Shown: piece after piece, positions 75-46,682 of the stretch
Layout of the letters: the number at the start of each line of letters is the position of its first letter
Numbering within the stretch: the first letter of the stretch is position 1
Source: Lophium mytilinum
Lineage: Eukaryota > Ascomycota > Dothideomycetes > Mytilinidiales > Mytilinidiaceae
NCBI GenBank assembly: GCA_010093605.1
Contig: MU004198.1
Coordinates: 998,456 to 1,062,455, forward strand
Length of the DNA: 64,000 nucleotides
Reading direction: 5' to 3'
Position numbers and translations under genes: made by a program
Notes under the pieces: generated by a model
The model's database searches: none
What the model was told of the DNA's origin: nothing
Seen by the model: the letters and a program-made list of their open reading frames with translations, nothing else

Positions 75-2896
75 ATGTCTTCCAGGTTCAGCAAGCGCCT
101 CTCCACGTCGACCGTGGGCTCCAAGTCCACAACTGACTCTAAGTCACCCAAGTCACCACGCAGTCCACGAGAGGGTCGTTCCACCGGATCTTCCACACCA
201 AAGCCACATCCGACCTTCCTGAAGCGCATGAGTGGTTTCCTTCCATCGATGCCAGCTTTCTTCAAGACTGCACGTCGGCCAAGATCAGCCCCTGAGCTCA
301 GAAGACGCCCTGTTCTGGAGCTAACATCCCCGACGGAGGCCAGCAACATTCTATCCTACCACCCGGGAAGCGCGACAGTTCCCGTACTCTCTTCCAGGGC
401 TGTGCAGCGAAGAGACGGATACTATTACTTCCCTGAGTACAAACCCAACACATCGCAATCCCTCTTTTCGGACCCGTGCCCAACCTTCGAGAAGCTAACG
501 CATAGTCGCCCATCAAGCAAAGGGCCGTCGGAAGCCAATCGTGATCATTCCCGCGGGTCCAGTCCAACCGAGGGTTACGCACGCGGCCCGAATCTAACTA
601 TCCCACGACTACTCACCCCCGTCCGAGAAAGACACACACCACCCTCCGCCGATCCCCATACTCCCACCCGCCCCGGCCACCCTCCCAGTACCCCCAGAAC
701 CCTTAGATACAATCCCACCACCCGCCTCCTAACCGGCCGTCCACCTTCACGCGGCAAACGCATCCCCTCCCCTCCCTCTTCCCCCAATAAGACCCCCAGA
801 CCACCACTCCACCACATCCATGGCCTCCCCCACGCTTCCCAACACCCCTACATCCGCCACCGCGACCTCCCTTACTACCAATCCCAGCCCCATCAACAAC
901 GCCCGGTAACCGCGAACCCCCCGGGATGGAGCGAAACAGTCTACTACCCCCCGTACCACTCGATCCCACCGCCTCCACGCCCCACGAATCCCGTACTCCG
1001 GACCCCACTCAGCGGAAACCGCACGCACGTCGCGTTCGAAGAGCGGACTTTCGGCACGCTCGGAAATCTGGTCGAAGAGAGCGACTCCAGCACGACGGCG
1101 TCGTCGACGTCTACGGCGCGGGCGGGGGGTTTACGGTTGGAGCTGCGAGGGGGAGGAGCGGCGGGGGGGTTCCAGTGGCCGGTGGGGAAGATGCCGACGA
1201 TGAGGGGGGGCGGGGGAGGGGGAAATGTGAGGATTCCCGGGAGTTTGTGGTGGATGGCGGGAGGGAGGGGGAGGGCGGGGACGGGGGAGGGGTGGAGGGC
1301 GCAGAAGGAGAAGGGAATGCCGTGGTTGTTTCTTGGGGGGATTTTGGAGAGGAAGGGAAAAGGGGGAAAGGGGTTGGCGATGGCAGGGAATGAAGGGAAA
1401 AGGGTGGAGGAGGAAATCGTGCTGTTGAAGGAGGGAGGGGCTGCTGCTGGAGATGGAGAGGTTGTGGATGAGCTTGCTCTTGGACTTAATTATGCTCGGC
1501 CTGTGGATACTCCGGTTCCAGGCCCTGGTAACAGCAATGTCGATAAGACTCCGTCGCCGCCAAGGAGTCTTGCTGCTGGATCTGCCGCTAATATGGCGGC
1601 TGCTGGATCGCCACCGAGGAGCAACGCTGGTGTAAATCCCTCGCTACCGAGAAGTGAGGCGGCTGAGAACACATCTCCACCGAAAAGCAATGCCGGTGTA
1701 AATCCGTCACCACCGAGAAGTAAGGCAGCTGAGAATGCAACTCCACCGAGGAGCAACGTCGGCGTAAACTCCTCACCGCCTAGGAGTAATGCAGGTGGAG
1801 CAGCAAATCCTTCGCCACCTAGAAGCGATGCGAGGGCGAATACTCCACCACCCAGGAGCAATGCCTCTGAAGTTGCCGCTAATAAAGCAGGTGTAAATTT
1901 CTCGTCACCAAGAAGTACTGCGGCAGCGAATCCCTCGCCTCCTAGGAGTAATGCAGGTGGAGTAGCGAATGCCTCACCATCGAGATGTAGTGCGCATGCG
2001 AATGCTACACCACCTAGGAGCATTGCTTCTGGAGTTGCTGGTAAGAAGGCAACTCCGACTGGCTCACCTGCGAGAAGTAATGCTGCTCCAAATCCTTCCC
2101 CATCGAGAAGTAATGTAGCTTCCAACCACTCGCCACCTAGGAGTAATACAGCGGTAAATCCCTCCCCACCAAGAAGTAACGCACCTGCCGATACACCACC
2201 TCCTAGAAGCACTGCCGGAGCTGAAAACACCTCTCCACCCAGAAGCAACGCACCCGCACACCCCTCACCACCTCGAAGCACCACTACTGCGAAGCTCTCT
2301 CCACCACGAAGCGAAGCCTCTGGAGTCGCTCGTTCGATCGCCGCGCCCGCAGATCTACACACACCAGCAGCTGAGAACGCGACGTCCCAAAAAGCCGCTT
2401 CGGACGCAAGCAGCTTGACGCCCTCGGACAGCATCTCCAACGTCGGTACCAAGCCGCACGGGAGCGCTGTGGGAGGGTCTAACGCAACTAACGCCGATGC
2501 GCGCTCGAAAGTCTCTGCTACAACGGAGACGAAGGCCCAATTCGGGGGGCTGGCGACCGCTGCAGAAGCTGGCTCTAATGCAGGAGCTGGTTCTGCTGCG
2601 GGGAGCATGAAGTCCCCAAGTGGTGCTCCAGGTGCGGTGAATGGTGAAGCGACAGGTAGTGGTAGTAAAGCGGGAAGCGCCACGGCGAAGAGTAGGGCGT
2701 CTAATGCGGGGGTGGCGGTTACACCGGCAGGTGAGTCCGCTCTAGAGAGCTGTGATAAAGTTGCTGACCATGGTAGATAAAGCTTCAGGCTGAGATTTCG
2801 AGACCAGACACTGAATGGGGTTCGTCGAGTGGTACTAACGTGGGTAGCGGAACGTCGAGTGGGGCGACTAGGTATACGATTACCGGATTTTTGTGA
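75..2896 (+). CDS. Low-complexity S/T-P-P-R repeat protein (hypothetical)
   Basis: I do not recognise a family. The uninterrupted frame runs from the ATG at 75 to a TAA at 2780 (901 codons). The N-terminal 60 residues are Ser/Lys/Arg-rich, followed by a Pro-rich stretch (about 190-330), a Gly-rich stretch (about 350-450) and a repeat region (about 490-760). That region carries roughly 25 copies of an [S/T]-P-P-R-S core spaced about 10-16 residues apart, mostly followed by N-A. No membrane segment or enzyme motif is visible, so it is probably a disordered protein. A canonical donor (gtgagt) at 2731, a branch-like gctgac at 2763 and an AG at 2807 would replace the last residues with a 29-residue tail ending in TITGFL and a stop at 2894-2896. 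I prefer this model, but it is not proven. The DNA changes from C-rich (600-1010) to G-rich (1110-1480) inside the gene. Confidence 0.6.
1540..2330 (+). repeat. Degenerate in-frame repeats encoding S/T-P-P-R-S units
   Basis: The DNA repeats variants of a core reading ccaccgagaagtaa or cctaggagtaatgc, with unit lengths that are multiples of three but not constant. The encoded cores are SPPRS, TPPRS, SPPKS, SPSRS and similar. Because the repeats use restricted codons, the opposite strand is also open for about 1.5 kb. I treat that as a by-product. Confidence 0.8.
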
Positions 2897-6343: not shown

Positions 6344-7122
6344 AAGCGAAAAGTCTGTGAATCAAGCTGATGTATCAAAGGAATCTGGATGATGGCGTGA
6401 CGACTGAACGAGGACTCGCAAGCTACCGCAGCCGAAAAGGACGCTGGCACGTGGGAACGCGAGCATGAATGTAGTCTGCATGACTTGGGCGACTGGAGCA
6501 TTACAATGATGGATCTCATTATCCTTGGGGGCTTTCTGCAAAGGAAAATCGGAGTTGAGATGACTTGGATTCATGGGCTGGGGTGCGGTTTGTATCCTAG
6601 TAATGATTCTAGCTTGATTGAGTGCTGGAAAGCACTCATCGTTCTGTATTAAGAGAAATCCAGGAGATTTTAGTGCTGAACGATTCTCAAAGAGCTTCAA
6701 GCGGGAAGCTCCCTCGTGTACAATTGCATTTCGGTAACGCTGCTGTTGTGGTGATTCCATGTGTTGGCCGGCAAGGCCGTCTGAGGGCGCTTGAAAAATG
6801 TACAGATTCTTTAGAGTACTGACCTTCCGCCTAAGAGATCGGTCATCTGCCATTTACAGAGATAGTAATGCACAGTAATTTTTAGAAAATTACAAGGTCG
6901 TGAGCCCCTCTTCAATTGAGGTTGCTGCCCAGGAGGCAAGTTTACCCGACCCGGTCGCTCGACGTCAACCTCAAGAAAATTCCAGACAACGACATCACCT
7001 CCCAATCTCACAACCCCCAAATGGACCTTGAACGTATATTGTTAAACGAACAATCCAAAGCCTAAACACAGACCTAAATATCTCGCCAATTCCTACATCA
7101 AACCGCACTACCAACAACAACC
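6344..7122. other. Intergenic, Tem1 to Csl4
   Basis: Contains the Tem1 3' untranslated region and the Csl4 promoter. A 163-codon frame on the minus strand (6362-6853) has no recognisable domain and atypical composition. I see no supported gene here. Confidence 0.5.
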
Positions 7123-7785
7123 ATGTCCGCTTCCCCCCTCGTCGACTTCGCCCTGCCAGGCCAACCCCTCGGCCCAACCTCAAAATACGCACCCGGCCCC
7201 GGCACCCACATCTACGAGTCCGTAATCCACGCCTCGATCTCCGGCCCAGTCGTCTCTACCCATGTTCCACCCACATCCACAAACACAAACAAATCCTCAA
7301 AGCCACTACCAACCCTCTCCATAACCCGCAACCCACCCCCCACCTCCTCCTCCTTCCTCCGCGGCGGTGCCTCCGTCCTCCCCGAAGTCGACAGCATAGT
7401 CCTCTGCCGCATCACACGCCTCGGCGCGCGCTTCGCCTCCGCGGAAATCCTAGTCGTGGGCGAGCTGGTCTGCCGAGAGCCGTTCTCGGGGATGATCCGG
7501 CGGGAGGACGTGCGGGCGACGGAGAAAGATAGGGTCGTGATACGGGAGATGTTCAGGGTTGGTGATGTAGTGCGCGGGGTTGTTTTGAGCCTGGGGGATC
7601 AGAGTAATTACTATATCAGCACGGCGAAGAATGAGTACGGGGTGGTGATGGCGTGGGCGCATGTAGAGGCGGGAGAGGGGGCGGGGGGTGCGGCGAAGAG
7701 GGCGATGTATCCGGTTAGTTGGAAGGAGGTGAGGGATCCGGTCACGGGGGTGGTGGAGGGGAGGAAGGTTGCAAAACCGTTTTGA
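7123..7785 (+). CDS. CSL4: Exosome cap subunit Csl4 (S1 domain)
   Basis: Structural subunit of the RNA exosome cap, acting in nucleus and cytoplasm in 3'-5' RNA decay and processing. The single exon encodes 220 residues. The N-terminus (PGQPLGP then PGPGTHIYESVIHASISG) matches the Csl4 N-terminal domain, followed by an S1-like barrel from about residue 85 (VDSIVLCRITRLG, then FRVGDVVRGVVLSLGD and YYISTAKNEYGVV). The C-terminus ends in GRKVAKPF. The region upstream is short and AT-rich. The first half of the coding sequence is extremely C-rich and the second half extremely G-rich, with the change near 7441. Confidence 0.92.
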   Translation: MSASPLVDFALPGQPLGPTSKYAPGPGTHIYESVIHASISGPVVSTHVPPTSTNTNKSSKPLPTLSITRNPPPTSSSFLRGGASVLPEVDSIVLCRITRLGARFASAEILVVGELVCREPFSGMIRREDVRATEKDRVVIREMFRVGDVVRGVVLSLGDQSNYYISTAKNEYGVVMAWAHVEAGEGAGGAAKRAMYPVSWKEVRDPVTGVVEGRKVAKPF

Positions 7786-8076
7786 GGAGGCGGTATGAAT
7801 GGTAAGTTGCGTATATGCATAGTTGGAGGCTTGGGGTGGTCATGGATTTCAGGATTATTGAGGTAAGTGGAGTGGGACGTTTTGGGCGTGACTGACTAAC
7901 TCATTGTGCAGTTGGCGCATGATACAAGCGGAGGTTCATTTACACAGATGTTTAAGATACCCATTTCACTCCCAAAAACGCTCAAGGTCCAGGTCTCTCT
8001 TCATTAGACCCGACATTTCCCATTCCTTCAAACACCAAACTCCAAGCGAGACCAGTCCCTAAAACCACCAAAACTG

Positions 8077-28095: not shown

Positions 28096-29067
28096 AGCAC
28101 TTCAAAGTATGTTAAAACTACGCGTGAGATCTAGAGGGTGGAAACCTTTACATATATTTCGCGGTTAGTCTGTATAGGCCAGGGGGTCTACAGACCCATA
28201 TGCAACCGTGCATAAGCAACAGTTAATTCTTGCGATGTACAAGTAGGCAGAAATTGGAGCACTTCAAAGCATACCGAGATTGAGAGTGAGATTTGGAGAC
28301 TACCGAACTTCACATCCATCCTTCACTCATTTTAGTTTGGCTGGGGGTATGTTAAAGGGATACATCAGTGTGCAAATGCAACTACTCGCTGCCGCAATCT
28401 GCGATTACGTGGAAATTGGAGTGCCCCGAAGCATGTCAAAACCAAGAGTGCAATTTGAAGCCAACCGAGCTTTACATCCATACTTCCTCCAACATAGTTC
28501 ATCTAGGGGTTCCATAAAGCGATGAATAACTGTATAAACGCAACGAGTCGTTCCCGCGATATGCGATTAGACGAAACTTAAAGGACTTCAGAGCATATTG
28601 ATATCAAGTGTGTGCTTTAAAGCCTGCCGATCTTTACATCCATACCTTACTCACGTTAGTTCGGCTAGAGGCATCTCAAAGCGGCATACCACTGTGCAAA
28701 TGCAACCACTAGTTCCTGCAATATGCGACCAGACTGAAGTTAAAGCAGTTCAAGACATGTCAAAAATCATATCTGCAATCTAGAGCTTACCAAACTCTAC
28801 ATCCATAATTGACTTATATTAGTTCGGCAAGGGGTGTCTTAAAGAGATACATGATTGTGCAAATGTAAGAGCTCCTCTATCTAATCTACGATAAGGGGGA
28901 GATCGAGCGACTTCAGAGAACGTCAATATCACGTGCACGATTTGAACTGGATCAATCTTTACATCTTCAACTCAATCATCTCGATTCGGCTAGAGGCGTC
29001 TCAAGTCCATAAAGACGTGTATAGAAGCAATATCACTGTCAATTCATCTGAACTACCTAGATAAACA
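28096..29067 (+). repeat. Tandem array of six 162-bp units
   Basis: Units start at 28096, 28258, 28420, 28582, 28744 and 28906, each exactly 162 nt apart, marked by agcacttcaaagc-like starts. The internal marker tttacatcc lies 51 nt into units 1-4 and 52 nt into units 5-6. A cggctagagg-like block follows at 80-81 nt. Sequence identity between units looks only moderate, with many C/T and G/A differences, but length is almost constant. The units contain stop codons in all frames I checked. No flanking direct repeats or terminal inverted repeats were seen. Confidence 0.85.
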
Positions 29068-29242
29068 ACCAGACTCAGTCCAAACAACCACCCAAAGCAT
29101 CCACATAAAGCCCCTAAACCAACTACACGGTCCAGCCGCAGGACCCACGCTACCCAGGCCCAAAATCTCTCAAAGCCCACAGAATCCACCACGAACAGCA
29201 GCCCAAACAACCCCCAAAGCCACTAGAACCCCCATATCAGCC

Positions 29243-29350
29243 ATGACCACCAGAACCACCCGAACTACCAGAACCACCAAGACTACCAGAATCACCAAGA
29301 CTACCAGAACCAGCCAGCACCGCAACCCAAACAACCCCCCAAACCCTCCA
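29243..29350 (+). repeat. Low-complexity ACCAGAACC/AACCC simple repeat
   Basis: Short imperfect tandem repeats of accagaaccacc and aagactaccag, then aacccaaacaac and aaacccac. Either direction can be translated as a Thr/Arg or Gly/Ser run, but this is a microsatellite-like tract in the 3' flank of the next gene. Confidence 0.7.
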
Positions 29351-29355
29351 AACTC

Positions 29356-30366
29356 TCAAAACCCACAACCAAAGCTCCCCCAAACCACCGGATACGCATA
29401 CGGCGCCCACGCATACGCCGGCTGCATATAATACGGCTCCGGGTACACGCACCCCGGCGTATAGTACTCCGCGCCCACCGGACACGGCTCCTGCAGATAC
29501 CCCGTCGTAAACAGCGGCGGGAGCGGCGCCACCTCGTCCTCCCCAAGCGGCGAAAGCGGCGGGCGCGTGGGCGGCTCAGCGGGGACAAGAACCGGCGAGA
29601 TGAGCTGGAGCGGGCACGGGGAGGGCGACGAGGAGCGGGACGAAGGCGCGGAAGCTTGAGACGGTTTCGGGCGCGGGGAGTAGGGCGATATGTAGCCGGG
29701 AGGGGAAGAAGAGACGTAAGCGGTGCTGGGAGGGGACGGTTCCGGGACATCTAGGGCCAGGAGGAGGGCGGCGTCGTCGTCGAAAAGGGGCTCCATAGCG
29801 TCGAAGTTGGTTGCGGTGAGGGGGGCGGTGAAGCGCAGACGTTTGGGCATGTGAAGGGACGCATTCGGGCCATGTTGCGGAGCTTCGTCGCACGCGGCGC
29901 CGGTCTCCGGGTCGTAGTGGAGGAACTTGCGCTTCGCGGAGCGGTTGGTGTTGATGGTTTCCTGGTAGTCCCTCATGTAGCATCTTGAGCCGGACGTGAG
30001 GCAGCGGAGGCAGCGCGTGAAGTCACCGGCCATGCAGGCGGTCTTGGCGCGCGTGCAGGAGAGGCAGGATCGGGCGAGTTTGCGCGCGGGGTTGAAGGTG
30101 CAGTCGATGCCGCGGAGCTGGCATGGGTGGCAGGTGGTGGTGCCAGCGGGATCGCATTTGTTGATGCGGTTTGCGTGGCAGTTGTCGCAGCTGTGGGCTC
30201 GCTCGACGAATCCAGAGGGAGCTTCAGTGGTTGGAGATGGAGGAAAATGGGATAGTCCGGCGGATCCAATCTGCGCTCCGTCCAGCGGAGACTGCAGGTG
30301 CGAAAGCTTCTCGGATCCAATCTTTAGGACAACGATCAGGGACTTCTTCTTGTCGAAATCGGACAT
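29356..30366 (-). CDS. Protein with two tandem Zn2Cys6-like clusters
   Basis: Single exon, 336 residues. Two cysteine clusters follow one another at about residues 59-120. The first is C-x2-C-x7-C-x7-C-x2-C-x6-C, starting CDNCHANRINKC. The second is C-x2-C-x6-C-x7-C-x2-C-x6-C, starting CLSCTRAKTAC. The second has exactly fungal binuclear-cluster spacing. A basic patch (SAKRKF, PKRLRF) follows, then a Pro/Ser-rich tail ending in a Tyr/Pro-rich segment. There is no fungal-specific regulatory (middle homology) region, so this is a small zinc-cluster protein, probably nuclear. Start is the ATG at 30366, 266 bp from the divergent neighbour. Confidence 0.78.
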   Translation of the reverse strand: MSDFDKKKSLIVVLKIGSEKLSHLQSPLDGAQIGSAGLSHFPPSPTTEAPSGFVERAHSCDNCHANRINKCDPAGTTTCHPCQLRGIDCTFNPARKLARSCLSCTRAKTACMAGDFTRCLRCLTSGSRCYMRDYQETINTNRSAKRKFLHYDPETGAACDEAPQHGPNASLHMPKRLRFTAPLTATNFDAMEPLFDDDAALLLALDVPEPSPPSTAYVSSSPPGYISPYSPRPKPSQASAPSSRSSSPSPCPLQLISPVLVPAEPPTRPPLSPLGEDEVAPLPPLFTTGYLQEPCPVGAEYYTPGCVYPEPYYMQPAYAWAPYAYPVVWGSFGCGF

Positions 30367-30632
30367 CTTGGCAAGAAAGGGGTGAATTTGGAGGTTTTGA
30401 GTGACGGTTTGAGAGCGCGGCTAGGCGAACGAAACTGGATAGAAGGACGAAAGAAACGCTGCTAAGCGTCGAGAATGAAGAAGTTAGGAAGGTACGAACA
30501 TTTAAAGCAGACTCGAGGCCAGAAGATATAGGTATAGAGCACAATACCTATTGTGCGTCCGAATGCGGTTTAGCGCGTCGAGCGAGGTGAAGATTTGGGC
30601 GAGCGGCAGCGCGCGCCAGCCTTCACCTCTCA

Positions 30633-32677: not shown

Positions 32678-33367
32678 TTAGAACACCTCGAACCCATTCC
32701 AGACTACATACCCTACCACGCTCGCCACACTCGCCAGCGCATACCCCAGATCCATCTCGACCACACTCCACACCCACATCGTACCAATCGGCGGCGCCGT
32801 CTTCATGACATAGTAGTACCCATTCATATTCCCTGAATACACTAGCCAGCACCCCGCCCCTACGCTCGTTCCCAGGAAGAACAGATTCCGCAACCACGGC
32901 ACCCGCATCGCCGTCCTCGTATGCAGCAACCACACCGCAATCATGAACACGGGGAAATTCGTAAGCGTCCGCGTGGTGATCTCGCGCCACACAACTTCCT
33001 CGCGGTACTGGCTATACACTATCACGTCGAGGGTGAAGTGCAGCATGCATAGCGAGATTGAGTATAGTAGGGCGTTTCCAAACGGGCCGATGGGGTCGTC
33101 GTCAAAAGGGGTCTCGCCCTCAGGTGTGTTGGAGGGCTCGTCGGGGTATTTCCCAGGGTTCTGGGCGCGGATCTCGGCTTGTCGCTCGGCGGCGAGGTCG
33201 AAGAGGGATTTGCCTTTTGGGCCGGAGCGGTCGGGGTGCGCCATGAGCATCTCGATGCTTTTTTCTGAGATCGTGGGTTCGTGCGTGGTGGGTTCGAAGG
33301 GGACGCCGGCTTTCTTTGCGGCGGCGCGGCGTTCTTTGCGGTTTCGGGGGCCTTCGGGTTCGGACAT
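32678..33367 (-). CDS. Conserved fungal membrane protein (DUF7719-like)
   Basis: Single exon, 229 residues. A basic N-terminus (NRKERRAAAKKAG) and a Pro/Asp linker precede about four hydrophobic segments from residue 100 on (LLYSISLCMLHFTLDVIVY, FPVFMIAVWLL, the NLFFLGTSVGAGCWLVY stretch, and the C-terminal ALASVASVVGYVVW). Motifs such as APPIGTMWVWSV fit a widespread uncharacterised fungal family. Probably an ER or other endomembrane protein. Its start is 188 bp from the divergent Gpi12 start. The coding strand is C-rich first and G-rich later. Confidence 0.78.
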   Translation of the reverse strand: MSEPEGPRNRKERRAAAKKAGVPFEPTTHEPTISEKSIEMLMAHPDRSGPKGKSLFDLAAERQAEIRAQNPGKYPDEPSNTPEGETPFDDDPIGPFGNALLYSISLCMLHFTLDVIVYSQYREEVVWREITTRTLTNFPVFMIAVWLLHTRTAMRVPWLRNLFFLGTSVGAGCWLVYSGNMNGYYYVMKTAPPIGTMWVWSVVEMDLGYALASVASVVGYVVWNGFEVF

Positions 33368-33555
33368 TTTGAGAGATTCGGGGCGATCGAGAGGTGTTGG
33401 GATGTTTTACGGTGAGATACGGTGATGTCGAAAGTTTGATGTTGAGGCTCTGCGGGAAGGGTGCGGAGAAGACCGCCAACGTCTGAACCTCCGCCCATCG
33501 CCCGTTTCTACATGCTCCCTCCACGAAGGCATCGGGACGTCAGACTGCCGCGAAT

Positions 33556-34524
33556 ATGAATTGGGTCACCTGGGCATCCGTCCCAATCCTCATCTTCGGC
33601 CTATGGATCTACACCGCGCAACTTAGCAAGTCTTTCCCTACGCTGAAGGGAAAGCGGATATGCCTCCTAATCGCCCACCCTGATGATGAAGCTATGTTCT
33701 TCGCGCCCACGCTCCTTGCGCTAGGACGCCCAGAGCTGGGGAACCACATCAAGATACTATGCCTAAGCAGTGGTGCGGCCCGATCCCAGACCCGCGAAGC
33801 TAATTGAATTGGGCTGACAGCTATGGCATAGGCAACGCAGACGGCCTCGGCGAAACGCGCAAAAAAGAGCTCGTCCAAAGCGGTCTCCAACTCGGTCTCC
33901 GCAGCACCGACGACATCCTCGTAATCGACGACCCGTACGTCCCCTCCTTCCTGGGCGGGTGGGATCCTCTACCATCTCTCCCTCTCTAACACCCCCACCA
34001 GCAACTTCCCCGACTCCATGACCACAACCTGGCACCCCCGCCTCATCTCCAACCTCCTCACCTCCACCTTCGCCCCCCGCATGTCCTCCGTCTCCGCCAA
34101 AGACCCCCCCCTCGCCACCATCGACGTCCTCCTCACCTTCGACCGCTCCGGCATCTCCTCCCACCCCAACCACATCTCCCTACACGCCGGCGCGCACACC
34201 TTCCTCCGCGCACTCATGCACCGGCACGCCGGGTGGGAGTGCCCGATAAAACTCTACACGCTCACCAGCACCAACATCGCTCGGAAATACCTGAGCGTGC
34301 TCGATGCACCTGCCACGATTGTAGGCATGATGATTGGCGGGAAGAAGGAGCTAGGGGAATTTCCGACGCCACTGATGTATGTGAGCGGGCCCACCCAGTA
34401 TAGGCGGGCGCAGCGGGCGATGACGCAGGCGCATGAGAGCCAGATGCGGTGGTTTCGGTGGGGGTGGATTGGGGTGGGGCGGTATATGGTTGTGAATGAT
34501 TTGGTGAGGGAGAAGACTATCTGA
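33556..34524 (+). CDS. GPI12: GlcNAc-PI de-N-acetylase (GPI anchor synthesis)
   Basis: Enzyme of the second step of GPI-anchor synthesis at the ER; removes acetate from GlcNAc-phosphatidylinositol. Three exons (33556-33772, 33832-33934, 34002-34524; introns 59 and 67 nt) give 280 residues. An N-terminal membrane anchor (residues 3-22) is followed by the metal-binding AHPDDEAMFF motif of the PIG-L family, then LSSGNADGLGETRKKEL restored by the first splice. The conserved SSHPNH motif with its second metal ligand lies in exon 3. Length is normal for the family. Confidence 0.94.
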
Positions 34525-38827: not shown

Positions 38828-41800
38828 CTACCTCCTCCCCCCAACACTTTCCTCCAAAAACCCGAGCAAGAACGCCTTATCATCCCCACTCGCCTTTTTC
38901 TGCGGCTGCTGCCCTCCTGCCGCCTTTCCAGCCACTAACTGCTCGGCTCCACTTCCAGCACCACTTCCAACACCCATCTGCTCCCCAATACTACTAATCC
39001 GACTCCTGCCCCCATTCGCCGCGGGACTCCCCTGCACGCCTCCACTCCCAAACGCCGGGCTGACCGGACTAATCACCCCCGAGCCCACCACCGACGGGAA
39101 ATGCGCGTGCGCGTGTGCGTGCGGCGTCGCGGGCCTCCCCGTCCCCGTACCAGCTGGTTTCGTGAAGAGTGACAACAGCGCCGATTTCTGGTCATGGGGG
39201 AGGTCGTCCCTGCGGTCGAACGCCGGCGGCTGGTTCTGGTTCTGCTCCCGGCGGTTCAGCGGCACGACAGTCCCTCCGCTGCTGCTCGGCGGGTTCGGGG
39301 TCGGGGCCTGCGGCTTCATGAAAGACGGTTGCGGGCCCGGTGACGGCGTCGGTTGCGGGCGGCGCAGGATCTTGGGGTGGAAACCTGTTGGTTTCGGGGC
39401 GAGGATGGTTGGTTTCGGGGAGGGGGTGGCGGTGGAGCGGCCGCCGTTGCCGCCGCGGAGGATGGAGCTGGGGGGGCCGGTGGGTTTCGTTTCCTGGGGA
39501 GGGTGGGGGGAGGTGGACGCGGAGGCGCTGGCGAGGGGGTGGCCATTTGCGTCGCGGCCGTGCTTGAGGGTTGCGAAGTCAGGCGCGTTTAAAGGGCCGG
39601 AGACGGTGGCGGAGGTGAGGGAGGGTTTGCGGGGGTCGTGGGGGGCGATGTTGAGGTGGGGGAGGGAGGAGGGGATCATGGGTTTGCTCGCGTGGCGGGC
39701 AGTATGTCTGGGGTGGCCGGGTGTTGGGTGTGCGGCGAGTTCGATTGGTTCACCAGATAGGTTCGTGGGAGTTGTGGGTGCAGGAGAGCCGACTGAAACG
39801 GACCCGGCACGGAAGAGATTGAGGAGGGAGTCTTGATGCGCATTTCGTGGCTTGGGTGCTACAGGTGCAAGTGCGGGAGACTCGCCGCCGAAGACGGTTC
39901 GTGGTGATTGAAGCACCGGAGAATCGACTATATGACGAATTGGTGCCGGCTCTGGAGCTGGTGGTGGGGCAGCCCTCTGCTTCATACTTGTAGTGCCGTG
40001 GACTTCGGACGGCTGCTGCGTTTGGGGAGTAGTCTTTGGAATAGTGGGTGACTTAAATGCGTTCAGTAATGACAAGCTGTGGGCAGTAAGCTTGGGCGGT
40101 GGCAGCTTCGAAGCAGGTGGGATCGCAGGTCCATGTAATCCCGGAAATTGCGGAGGTTGCGCGAATTGAGGATCTCCAGTCCGCTGGTAAGGCCGTGGCA
40201 CATCGTGTGTGAAAGTTGGCTGGATGCTCGGGCCATGGGTATTAAACATGGGATGTGCAACGCTCGAAGGAAACGGCGGAGGCCGGAACCCAGGCGGGAA
40301 CATGCCCTGCTGCCCGAATTGGTTTGGTCCAGGTGAAAATCCACCAGACTGCGGTCGTGGTGGCTGCATATGCTGCGGGGGTGATAATGGGAACTGTGGA
40401 GGTGATAACGGGAACTGTGGAGGAGGCGGCATTTGCGAGAAATGGGGTGGTCGAGGATGCTGATGATGAGGGGGCGGAGGCGGATAAGTTGGCTGAGACA
40501 CCTGCTCGAAAGGCGTTTGAGGATATGGTGGAGCGGTTGGAGGACCATTTTCTCTGAGAATAGCGAGCAGAGGATTTATTGGAAGTTCTTCTGGGGGAGA
40601 CACGACTTGCTGTCCTAACGGTATTGAGCCGACTCTCAGAAGGCGCTTCAGATCTTCTGCAGGGTCGGATATAATTAGCGGAGGAGCAGAGACTTCAGGA
40701 AGAGTGTCCGAAGCTCTGTGCCCACGTCCAAGATTGGCCAGCAGTTGACTGAGATTGTCTTCCGCTCCCACAGGCTGTCCATTCGAAGCTTGTAGTCCCT
40801 CGTCTGCCGTCAGCTCATCCATGTGGACAGCAGATTCTTCCGCCTCGGTTTCCGTAAGGTCTGTTTCGACGGGAGGAGCGAGATGGGTGGGCTTTGCCGC
40901 TTTGAGCTTGTCTTGTTTTTTCTGCTTATTTATCCAAGCTCTTAAGGGTCCGAGGAACGGCGCAACCATGTAGAACATGTTGTCTTTGTATACGTCCTCT
41001 CCGTTTCCTTGCACCTGTTGTGAATTTTGGCCCTTCCGTTTGAGGGTCGGCAGGTCGGAGAGTTTATACCAGTCGATTTTCTACGCTAAGTCAGTATTCC
41101 ATCCCATCCAAACGACAGCTTTATCACTTACGCTAATCTCCTTCCTCGTCCGCGGCGCAAAGTAGGTATCCATTGGCACGCCTCGGAAGACATACAGGCG
41201 CATATGTTGCTCTCGCATCGAAACTTCGATATATTTCATATCAGCCTCGTCCTTCACAAGGCCCGCCTCTTTGATCTCAAAGCCCGTCTCCTCATAGACT
41301 TCGCGTATAGCGCAATCTAAATCTTTCTCATCCTTGTTGATCTTGCCGCGGGGGAAACTCCACTTTGCACCCTTTTTCCATCCCTTCACTAATACGGCTT
41401 GGTCCATAGCTTCATTCAGCATTATAGCGCCACGCACGGGAACGCGAGTTTTGTAGGCGAGGAATTCGGAGTAGGCTTGGGTATGGTGGTACTCGGAAAA
41501 GGCGGAGAGCAGCGGGCAGTGCTGGAATATGAGAAGGCAAAACTTCTTGAGGTTCATGGAGGGGAGCTGGGGGTCGAGTGGGCGGATGAAGTCTTCGTAG
41601 AACCATTGTGCCTCTTCGACTTGGAAGCAGATGCGCTCGACGGATTCGAGTTCTTCTTGGGGGAGGTTGATGATGAAGCGGACGCACAGATCGTCGAGCC
41701 CTGATTGAGTTTGTTAGTGAGGTGCGTATCAGAGAGTGAGGGCGCAAATATGAGGTATAGAACAGTTGCGACAGCGTGTTGACAAGCTGTATTGAGGTCG

Positions 41801-42737: not shown

Positions 42738-43652
42738 ATGACGGCCGCAATTGGCAAATATGCTGCGAAGAAGCTGCTCAAAGGGGAGATGGCGAAATAC
42801 GCTAAGAAAGATGTCGCTGGCCCATACGTAAGTCCCCTTCCATCCAATTACCAGATCTAGCAATGCAATCGCATCCTTCAATCCTTCTTAATTAATTCAA
42901 CCTTGCCCCTCACCCTCCCCATACACAGTGGCTAACATGTCTTCTTACCACAGGATCCCTACTTCGCAACAGTAACCGACTCACGCGGCAAAACGCGCAA
43001 AGTCAAGAAAGAAATCCCCGACTACATCCCCGACCACCAAGCCCTGATCCTCGCCAAAGTGCGCAAGCGCGCCTACCGCCTCGACTGCTCGCTCTTTAAC
43101 TTCCTCGGCTTCCGATTTGGGTGGTCTTCCGTCGTCGGCATTGTGCCCGTCGCTGGTGACGCAATCGACGGCGCCATGGCGCTGGAAACGATCCGCCTCT
43201 GCTCCAAGGCCAAGGACAAGAACTTCACACTACGGCGCCAGGCGTTGATCCTGATGTTTTTGTGGTTGGCGATTGATATCGTGGTGGGGCTAGTGCCGTT
43301 TGTCGGCGACCTGGCGGATGCGAGCTTCAAGGCGAACTCGAGGATCTGTCAAGTATTGGAGAAGGAGTTGGACAAGACGTTTAAGCCGAATGCGACGAAG
43401 GTGCCGAGGCCCGCGACCGTGTATGAGGAGTTCAGTGAGGACGAATTGGCTGGGCTGCGGGATAGCTACGAAGGAGATGCTGGGGTTCAGCAGCCGCAGC
43501 GTGTGAGGAGCAGCAGGCGTGAGAGGCAGCCAGATCTCGAAATGGGACAGGCGCAGGTTCCTTCGCGATCGGGGACGAAGACGAAGTACGACTCCAGACG
43601 CACTGCGGAGAGGGATGCACCGGCTAGATCGGGAACGAAGGGGAGGCGGTAA
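42738..43652 (+). CDS. DUF4112 membrane protein
   Basis: Two exons (42738-42827 and 42954-43652; intron 126 nt) give 262 residues. The core contains the DUF4112 signature: a hydrophobic segment ending VVGIVPVAGDAIDGAMAL and, 60 residues on, LMFLWLAIDIVVGLVPFVGD followed by LADASFKAN. The two segments are probably membrane hairpins. The C-terminal 80 residues are Arg/Ser/Glu-rich and probably cytosolic. Family function is unknown. The coding strand switches from C-rich to G-rich near 43200. Confidence 0.87.
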
Positions 43653-44471: not shown

Positions 44472-46682
44472 ATGATGTCGTTTCTTGCTGTTTGCTGTTT
44501 TCTATCAAAAGCCTCGTCATCTAGCGCCTATCCTTTGATTCTGCACACAAGAAACTCCTCAAATAACACTTCTAACCCTGCGCAAAGCACTTCCGGCTGG
44601 GTGGGTACGCCGAATGTTCGAGGCACGGCGGACCTATTAATTTCAAGCTTGACAACTCTTGCATTATGCGCGTGGACGGCATACCATCCAAACGTCAATC
44701 CAAAAAGGAGCCTCCTGCATACCTCGTTACGCAGATTTAAATGGATGCTAGCGGCCATTCTCATACCAGAATGGGTGCTGTACTGCGCATGGAACCAGCG
44801 CTACTCCGCGCTGGCCCTGAAGGACACTATCAATAAAATTCTAGAAAAAGATATTCAATTCGACACGAAATATGAAACGATCAACGCCGCTGAATCCCAA
44901 GCGACTACGGACGGATCAGTAACGGATGGTCAATCTTCAAAACCACCAGCTACCACGAAACGCTCCATGTGGACTACCGAACAAGCCTTCTTCGCGACAT
45001 CCGGTGGATTCTCCGTGGACGCAAGCACATTCTGGCCACAGGAGCAATTGACCTTCACTCCGAACGGCTTGGTCGAACTCGCAAGACTTGGCCTGCTTCC
45101 AGATGTGTCTCCAACTACGATAACGGACAAGACCAAAGCAGACGTGGTCGCCAAGGTTCTAGTGTGCCTCCAAGCTGGCTGGTTCCTAGTTCAAACCATT
45201 GCTCGTTTGATCCAACATCTCCCTGTGACGCTCTTGGAAGTCCACGTGGTAGCACACATCGGGTGCGCGTTTGGAATGTATCTACTGTGGCTTGAGAAGC
45301 CGTATGATGCCGAATACCCAATCGCGTTCGAGGATGAGCGTGTGAGGGATCTGGCTGCGCTGTTTGCGGTTGATGGGGAGAGCGTAAGTCATGCCTTTCG
45401 CATAGCTGTACCGCATCTATTAATTATATGATAGGACAAGCGGCATCGATACAGACCACACGCTGACCCCGGGAAAGATGAAAATGAGGTCGATATTCGA
45501 GACGTTCGCAGCGCGCATGCATACGCCAATAAAGGCCGCTCGAAACGAGCGAGACTCCATCATTCTCTCCACCGGAGCGAGGGCTCCTCTACTGGCCCAA
45601 AACACCGGTTGACGAACTTTTCAGATGATGATTGGTTCAAGGCCACTTTCCCCCAGATATCAACAAAGGAGGCCGAAGATCGCATCCAAGAACATGTCGA
45701 CCGAGCGAATAGGGGGGTTCGGCTGGTTTGGACTCCCGCCATCCAGGAAGCCGTCCAGCCTCCCCACTTGCCAACCTCAGAGCCACTATCCCCAATCTCA
45801 ACATCTTCAACTCCTCTCCCGAACCCATCAAACACCCCTTCTCCCTCATCATCGTCATCACCTCATCCTTCTCCATCTCCATCGGCCCATTCACTAGCTC
45901 CCCCCTCTCCACCCTCTCCCTCCCCAGCTCCCTCCTCTCCGCCCCTTCCCTCTCCAGCATCTCCCTCCTCTCCTCCCCTTCCTTCTCTAACTCCTACCCC
46001 TCCAGCCTCACCCTCCCTCACCCCCCGGCCCTCCTCCCGCGCCACAACCTCCTCAACCTCCTCCTACGCCACCCTCGACCCCCACCTCCTCTACTTCTCC
46101 GCCGACGCCTTCCCCACCCGCGCCACGACCTCCCGCCCCTCGTACCCCTCCCCCCACGTCGTCTCCACGCGCCGCAACCACCGCATCAAAGGCCAACGCT
46201 CTCTCTTCAGCGGAGCGGTAGCGGGTAGGGACACCTCCACCCGCGCCCTCACCACCATGACCCTCCTCGGCTTCTACTACGGCGCGGTCCACCTCAGCGC
46301 CTGGAACGCCTTCTTCGTCACCGAAACCGAGCGGTGGATGTGGCGCGTGGCGGGGGTTGCGTTTGCGGGGTTTCCGGTGCTGTTGCTCGGCGCGGTGGTG
46401 GTGGGGGGGTGGAAGATGGGATTGCGGGCCGCACCACCCGAGGAGAGGGTGCAGAGGGGGAGGTCGACTCGGCGGCCCACCCACCCACTGGTGAGGAGAG
46501 TAGCGGTGTGGGGGTTGGAGGCGGTGGAGGCGGGGTGTGTGCTGCTCATGATGCCGATGTGTGTGGCGTATGCGGGGGGCAGGGGGTTTGTGGTTGTGGA
46601 GGCGTTTGTGGGGTTGAGGGGGGCGGAGGAGGGGACGTGGAGGACGGTGGAGTGGGCGGGGTTCGTGCCGCATCTTGGGTAA
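44472..46682 (+). CDS. Multi-pass fungal membrane protein with Pro/Ser-rich insert
   Basis: Two exons (44472-45383 and 45435-46682; intron 51 nt) give 719 residues from the tandem ATG at 44472. A signal-like hydrophobic N-terminus (SFLAVCCFLSKASSS) is followed by a membrane segment with ISSLTTLALCAWTAYHPN, then WMLAAILIPEWVLYCAW, and further hydrophobic stretches around residues 240-275. A region of about 110 residues in exon 2 is almost entirely Ser and Pro. Three to four hydrophobic segments follow (LLGFYYGAVHLSAWN, VAGVAFAGFPVLLLGAVVVGG, CVLLMMPMCVAYA), ending FVPHLG. This order matches a common uncharacterised fungal family. Composition flips from C-rich to G-rich near 46330. Confidence 0.82.

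Follow-up and report, generated by a model that had tools for sequence, protein, structure and literature searches.

The Csl4/EXOSC1 coding sequence lies on the plus strand of a 64,000-nucleotide stretch of the Lophium mytilinum genome (C18:998456-1062455, in an assembly of 24 contigs and 43.18 Mb), referred to here as the window. On its coding strand, a C-rich first half gives way to a G-rich second half at about position 7455 (LLR 52.9), and here, over a span of 100-200 bp, the GC skew climbs from about -0.56 to values near +0.6. In the G-rich arm, the 100-bp skew stays between +0.54 and +0.62 over 7500-7899 and then falls to -0.13. The initial annotation of this DNA had drawn attention to the switch by means of short base counts, and all six of its C/G pairs are reproduced exactly: 27 C and 2 G at 7261-7320 against 8 C and 31 G at 7681-7740 in Csl4 (coding strand), 32 C and 7 G at 34081-34140 against 4 C and 30 G at 34441-34500 in the exon that it named Gpi12, and 36 C and 1 G at 45961-46020 against 4 C and 35 G at 46561-46620 in a gene that it called a membrane protein. 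The features of the window that bear on the pattern are the following:

600..1500, strand unassigned: strongest C-to-G switch of the window, centre 1061, LLR 63.3
7000..7455, plus strand: C-rich arm of Csl4, beginning upstream of the ATG, 100-bp skew about -0.56 over 7000-7399
7123..7785, plus strand: Csl4/EXOSC1 coding sequence (Pfam EXOSC1, E 1.2e-19; ECR1_N, E 2.1e-12)
7456..7900, plus strand: G-rich arm of Csl4, extending about 115 bp beyond the stop codon
16797..17411, minus strand: Hemerythrin-domain gene (Pfam Hemerythrin, E 1.4e-11), absent from the initial annotation
29359..30420, minus strand: Zn2Cys6 gene (Pfam Zn_clus, E 7.6e-6), switch at about 29546, LLR 37.0
32681..33406, minus strand: DUF7719 gene (Pfam DUF7719, E 1.3e-28), switch at about 33003
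34081..34524, plus strand: exon named Gpi12, turning from C-rich to G-rich at about 34282, with about 242 bp left to the stop
38831..41713, minus strand: Dcp2 gene (Pfam DCP2 and NUDIX), with a predicted intron at 41081-41131
42936..43652, plus strand: DUF4112 gene (Pfam DUF4112, E 3.6e-28), switch at about 43113, LLR 16.2
45435..46682 (also given as 45435-46679), plus strand: ORF called a membrane protein, switch at about 46328, LLR 56.1

The assignment of these switches to named genes is of unequal firmness. The exon at 34081..34524 has no Pfam match at E<=1, so that the name Gpi12 is unconfirmed, and a Pfam search with the ORF at 45435..46682, in which the switch lies about 350 bp before the stop, returned nothing above the cut-off. 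Around the strongest switch of the window, neither the ORF at 791-1390 on the plus strand nor that at 944-1489 on the minus strand has a Pfam match. The DUF7719 gene switches 322 bp before the ORF end (step LL 23.8, p 0.005; LLR 21.7), and the Hemerythrin-domain gene carries a strong C-to-G step as well (LL 26.4, p 0.005). The DUF4112 gene had been listed among those with the polarity, and a switch is indeed present; from the first ATG onward, however, all four third-position quarters are G-biased, and the C-rich part lies mostly upstream of that ATG. Dcp2 contains two C-to-G centres, at 41437 and 39092, one of them within the box A/NUDIX exon and the other near the 3' end. In the Zn2Cys6 gene the coding-strand G arm runs about 350 bp past the ORF end. 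The stretch directly downstream of this ORF end (29000-29360) is of low complexity, rich in C and A with CCA/ACC-like runs, and the plus-strand AT skew reaches about +0.5 at 29001-29500.

The extent of the pattern was assessed in a main sample of 267 kb, made up of the window, 30 overlapping mitochondrial-carrier (Mito_carr) loci, 20 random 5-kb stretches and five DEAD/helicase loci, the latter selected around long DEAD-family ORFs by length. A held-out sample of 12 further random 5-kb stretches (60 kb) was taken later. Protein families such as Zn_clus and Fung_rhodopsin mark the sampled genome as fungal. For ORF calling, a score of amino-acid composition was trained on 15 ORFs of the window that have Pfam matches; it yielded 57 ORFs: 21 in the window, 19 in the random stretches, 12 at carrier loci and five at helicase loci. 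Locus L054 contributes a 370-codon ORF to the last group; its long ORF, truncated at the end of the locus, is excluded. These units are often single exons, their starts are first ATGs, and transcript ends are not known. The composition filter misses, because of low scores, Csl4, the Gpi12 exon, the Zn2Cys6 gene, the ORF at 45435-46679 and the long Dcp2 exon. Such low scores of strong-skew genes probably arise because the skew alters amino acids, and since the filter drops these genes, strong cases are probably under-counted.

In this sample (267 kb of the 43-Mb genome), 50 of 57 ORFs have a third-position skew that increases towards the stop. Steps were tested against synonymous within-gene shuffles (significance at p<=0.01) and are significant in 22 of the 57, running from C to G in 20 (11 on the plus strand, nine on the minus) and from G to C in two; the pattern is genome-wide. 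Among the ten held-out ORFs, nine rise, two have a significant C-to-G step and none a G-to-C step. A shuffle test comparing the first with the last 100 bp is passed at p<0.05 by 31 of the 57 ORFs, distributed as 10/21 in the window, 13/19 in the random stretches, 5/12 at carrier loci and 3/5 at helicase loci; the held-out ORFs pass in 5/10 cases, and all random stretches together in 18/29. Averaged over 39 ORFs, the skew is -0.24 in the 100 bp upstream, -0.18 in the first 100 bp and +0.27 in the last 100 bp. At fourfold sites along the ORFs, C declines from 0.38 to 0.20 and G increases from 0.21 to 0.40, A and T remaining nearly flat. Whole-sequence AT skew in ORF bins is small and mostly positive, and third-position AT skew moves from +0.05 to -0.20 in 52 ORFs (a set that predates corrected duplicate removal).

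A scan that makes no use of gene calls, in which centres of skew change in the 267 kb were scored by LLR and their numbers compared with those in 60-bp block shuffles, finds 64 C-to-G centres with LLR>10 (19.1 +/- 3.5 in shuffled sequence) and 73 G-to-C centres (17.5 +/- 2.2). The two kinds are placed differently with respect to genes. At LLR>15, 17 of 38 C-to-G centres and 3 of 36 G-to-C centres fall inside called ORFs, whose share of the sequence is 37.5%; the corresponding figures for the held-out sample are 6 of 10 and 0 of 11 at a coverage of 28%. G-to-C centres clearly avoid called ORFs, and the excess of C-to-G centres within them is modest. Several of the 21 C-to-G centres outside called ORFs sit in Pfam-supported genes missed by the filter, among them Csl4, the Zn2Cys6 gene and ORFs of the SDR, Dak2 and fungal rhodopsin families.

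The initial annotation knew of no standard annotation for such a polarity. It had in fact been described by McLean and Tirosh (2011, BMC Genomics 12:638, PMC3315797), who reported a coding-strand C-bias at the 5' end and a G-bias at the 3' end of genes in dozens of fungi, from a data set that covers filamentous ascomycetes such as Aspergillus, Neurospora and Fusarium. The polarity of L. mytilinum is almost certainly the same phenomenon, already known from fungi, in which the two ends of genes have GC skews of opposite sign. In both cases the C-bias begins on the promoter side, the G-bias precedes the stop codon, the flanks are reached, and the skew is seen at fourfold and non-degenerate positions alike; AT skew in that work is flat and mostly positive along genes, and the correlation with expression is weak. 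The known pattern is strong in this genome, with an abrupt switch in some genes. The ends test is passed by 31 of 57 ORFs here, in a small sample of units that are often single exons, compared with 33% of Candida albicans genes by a similar test in PMC3315797. Unlike the pattern set out in that article, individual genes here can show a step instead of a ramp (8/20). In addition, polarity strength rises with GC3 in L. mytilinum (rho 0.46; 0.39 per informative site), whereas PMC3315797 reports, by a different measure, a negative relation between skew and GC content. In an earlier study of plants and fungi (Fujimori 2005, PMC555766), GC skew was described at transcription starts; several filamentous fungi there have a C-excess at 50-100 bp ahead of the start codon, as the present genes do, but in the passages compared the skew concerns the 5' end only.

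The direction of the pattern relative to transcription requires some caution. Minus-strand genes had been said to show the reversed order on the plus strand, and this order is absent in all three of the genes named. The DUF7719 gene, read from left to right on the plus strand, has a skew of -0.33 and then +0.32, and plus-strand skew goes from lower to higher in the Zn2Cys6 gene and in the C-terminal exon of Dcp2, both on the minus strand. The argument built on it, that the polarity follows transcription because both strands agree, is invalid: a C-then-G arrangement is its own reverse complement, so that agreement between plus- and minus-strand genes is uninformative on transcription. What suggests some dependence on direction is the near-constant distance between switch and stop, on which the held-out data are not decisive.

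This distance has a median of 110 codons (IQR 83-146) in the 20 genes with C-to-G steps and does not scale with gene length (rho 0.08, against a mean of 0.54 under a uniform-break null; P 0.007). A break common to all 57 ORFs attains a likelihood of 364.5 when placed from the stop, 341.5 when placed by fraction of length and 222.3 when placed from the start. In the 26 ORFs of 250-699 codons, on the other hand, the fit is slightly better for a fixed fraction (203) than for a fixed distance (196). With preset parameters, the held-out ORFs favour stop distance (59.2) over fraction (39.2), and with free fits fraction (62.3) and stop (59.8) are near equal; one gene (L064) dominates the likelihood comparison. 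The transition is sharp in some genes, a linear ramp within the gene being rejected in favour of a step at p<=0.01 in 8 of the 20 genes.

A further proposal, that conserved genes carry the polarity and accessory genes do not, describes part of the window, where F-box, ankyrin and Sugar_tr ORFs are weak (p 0.05-0.70), and fails outside it. Five long DEAD/helicase-type ORFs of 1138-2304 aa (the L054 one cut by the locus end) have bodies without polarity. Their third-position skews in 240-bp bins range from about -0.36 to +0.31, with the exception of the last bin of L053 (0.69), and in the step test, applicable to four of them, a significant C-to-G step emerges only for L053, at its last 5%; the L052 ORF leans slightly the opposite way (0.03 to -0.20, p 0.03). 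For four of the five the locus includes sequence ahead of the ORF, and the nearest 200 bp of it are C-biased (-0.18 to -0.45). Conversely, strong switches occur in genes that we take here to be accessory, of the tannase, P450, fungal rhodopsin and SDR families. With polarity absent from helicase bodies and present in tannase, P450 and rhodopsin genes, the contrast between conserved and accessory genes was discarded beyond the window.

The skew was held to work largely through codon third positions, and there the signal is indeed strong, as codon or amino-acid selection along the protein would also have it. It is not restricted to these sites: codon positions 1-2 shift in the same way at the third-position breaks in 19 of 20 genes, and the polarity alters protein sequence as well as codons. 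The flanks follow, with 50-bp skews in the 20 strong genes of -0.43 ahead of the ATG and +0.20 beyond the stop, compared with -0.12 and +0.07 in 29 weak ones. The skew of predicted introns correlates with that of their flanking exons when the scan is relaxed (27 introns, rho 0.54, p 0.004), six decoy scans giving 5-7 introns each, and less so when it is strict (n=20, rho 0.40, p 0.08). Because positions 1-2, flanks and predicted introns move together with third positions, codon choice alone does not account for the skew, and codon or amino-acid selection is accordingly a very improbable explanation. These data show that the skew acts on DNA or pre-mRNA composition and not solely on codon choice, and they bear out the proposal of a gene-scale compositional asymmetry at all four levels.

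McLean and Tirosh left the cause open between mutation and selection, proposing either mutation linked to the phase of RNA polymerase II (Pol II) or avoidance of CTP (PMC3315797). Our tentative preference is for a strand asymmetry in mutation or repair that is linked to the transcript end, which we consider somewhat short of an even prospect as the mechanism. The coding strand carries a C-bias that sets in a little ahead of the ATG and persists over most of the gene, and a G-bias in the final 330 bp or so ahead of the stop. In the favoured mechanism, mutation or repair would act unequally on the two strands as the gene is transcribed, first under the regime of initiation and elongation and then under a different one where Pol II enters its 3'-end state. 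It is the position of the switch, about 110 codons before the stop, that leads us to favour such a process, although the held-out data do not settle the matter. In yeast, the departure of elongation factors from Pol II takes place ahead of the poly(A) site whatever the length of the gene, and a release of this kind would fit a fixed 3' zone. The helicase-locus ORFs that pass the ends test are as expected of an end-anchored effect. Several observations argue against a transcript-end process: the bodies of the long ORFs lack polarity and only one of the five turns clearly G-rich at its end, the fixed stop distance is slightly outdone by fraction in mid-length ORFs and nearly equalled in the held-out free fits, and two ORFs run from G to C, that at 3694-4434 of L045 and a Ybp2-like kinetochore-family gene (L033:1044-3269, minus strand), whose inverted polarity encloses two C-to-G centres. 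The dependence of strength on GC3 also speaks against a simple transcription model, which does not predict it. Taken together, the known pattern and a transcription-linked mechanism form the best overall explanation, one that we hold to be as open to failure as to success.

The two main classes of explanation differ in whether gene ends or recombination sites set the position of the switch, and the strong form and sharp steps of the pattern in this genome ease tests of mechanism. We favour the transcript-end process over a strand-symmetric footprint with its centre inside the gene, left for instance by meiotic break repair or by gene conversion whose repair is biased between strands; this alternative seems fairly unlikely. 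In such a footprint each side of the centre would gain C on one strand, giving C-to-G on both strands, and the self-complementarity of the C-to-G arrangement counts in its favour. GC content is 0.62 at C-to-G centres, about 0.52-0.54 at 1 kb and 0.49 at G-to-C centres, and this peak and dip recur in the held-out sample (0.60 and 0.51), although part of the peak is explained by coding DNA being GC-richer than intergenic DNA. At fourfold sites, the 5' arm (A.19, C.43, G.18, T.21) approximates in composition the reverse complement of the 3' arm, given in this mirror comparison as A.19, C.51, G.17, T.13; the values for genes that lack a switch are A.21, C.31, G.24, T.24. The correlation of strength with GC3 and the paired centres of Dcp2 and of the Ybp2-like gene also agree with a footprint, as does a reversal of GC skew about the centre of yeast recombination hotspots (PMC8276760, citing Smagulova 2011). 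The likeness to these hotspots consists in a sign change about a centre, the available text of that article giving no direction for it, and hotspot centres were there set by hotspot maps, those here from skew alone. Against a footprint stands the switch near 110 codons from the stop, which in the first set does not scale with length. A broader formulation appears improbable, in which the switches would be strand-symmetric, GC-rich, two-armed domains of up to about 1 kb marking long-lived sites of recombination initiation or repair, and the published gene skew largely a by-product of where such sites are placed and not of transcription.

Selection on transcription elongation, for instance avoidance of C at 3' ends owing to scarce CTP (the adaptive hypothesis of McLean and Tirosh), would affect introns, transcribed flanks and all codon positions alike, matching the data, but it predicts neither abrupt steps, the ramp being rejected in 8/20 genes, nor the dependence on GC3; we regard it as unlikely. 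The initial annotation had also suggested selection on transcript structure, and the two halves of these genes are indeed complementary in composition, so that they might pair in the mRNA. In ten genes with 15 shuffles each, the native fold is more stable than the within-arm shuffle mean in three (L022 being the clearest, z -2.67), but native energies are no lower than those of synonymous shuffles, mean z being positive for both within-arm (+0.49) and whole-gene shuffles (+0.72). Since natives are on average no more stable than shuffles, folding selection was rejected for these ten genes and is scarcely credible as a cause. Antisense promoters at the 3' end, whose own C-skew would be read as G-skew on the sense strand, would render gene ends mirror images. 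The 3' G-bias is, however, alike for convergent neighbours, where no downstream promoter is expected, and tandem ones (0.28, n=20, vs 0.21, n=13; p 0.40; called ORFs within 3 kb), and on the basis of these neighbours the possibility, which seems very doubtful, was rejected. Replication origins were set aside by scale only, the arms spanning a few hundred bp and the window holding 14 C-to-G centres in 64 kb.

The skew may also affect gene finding. On the plus strand at 3-2777, the window contains a stop-free frame of 925 codons that is partly antisense to an ORF at 1493-2995 on the minus strand, and its amino-acid score of -35.5 is strongly non-coding. It is probably the skew that generates long antisense frames of this kind as a side effect, and gene finders could be led astray by them.
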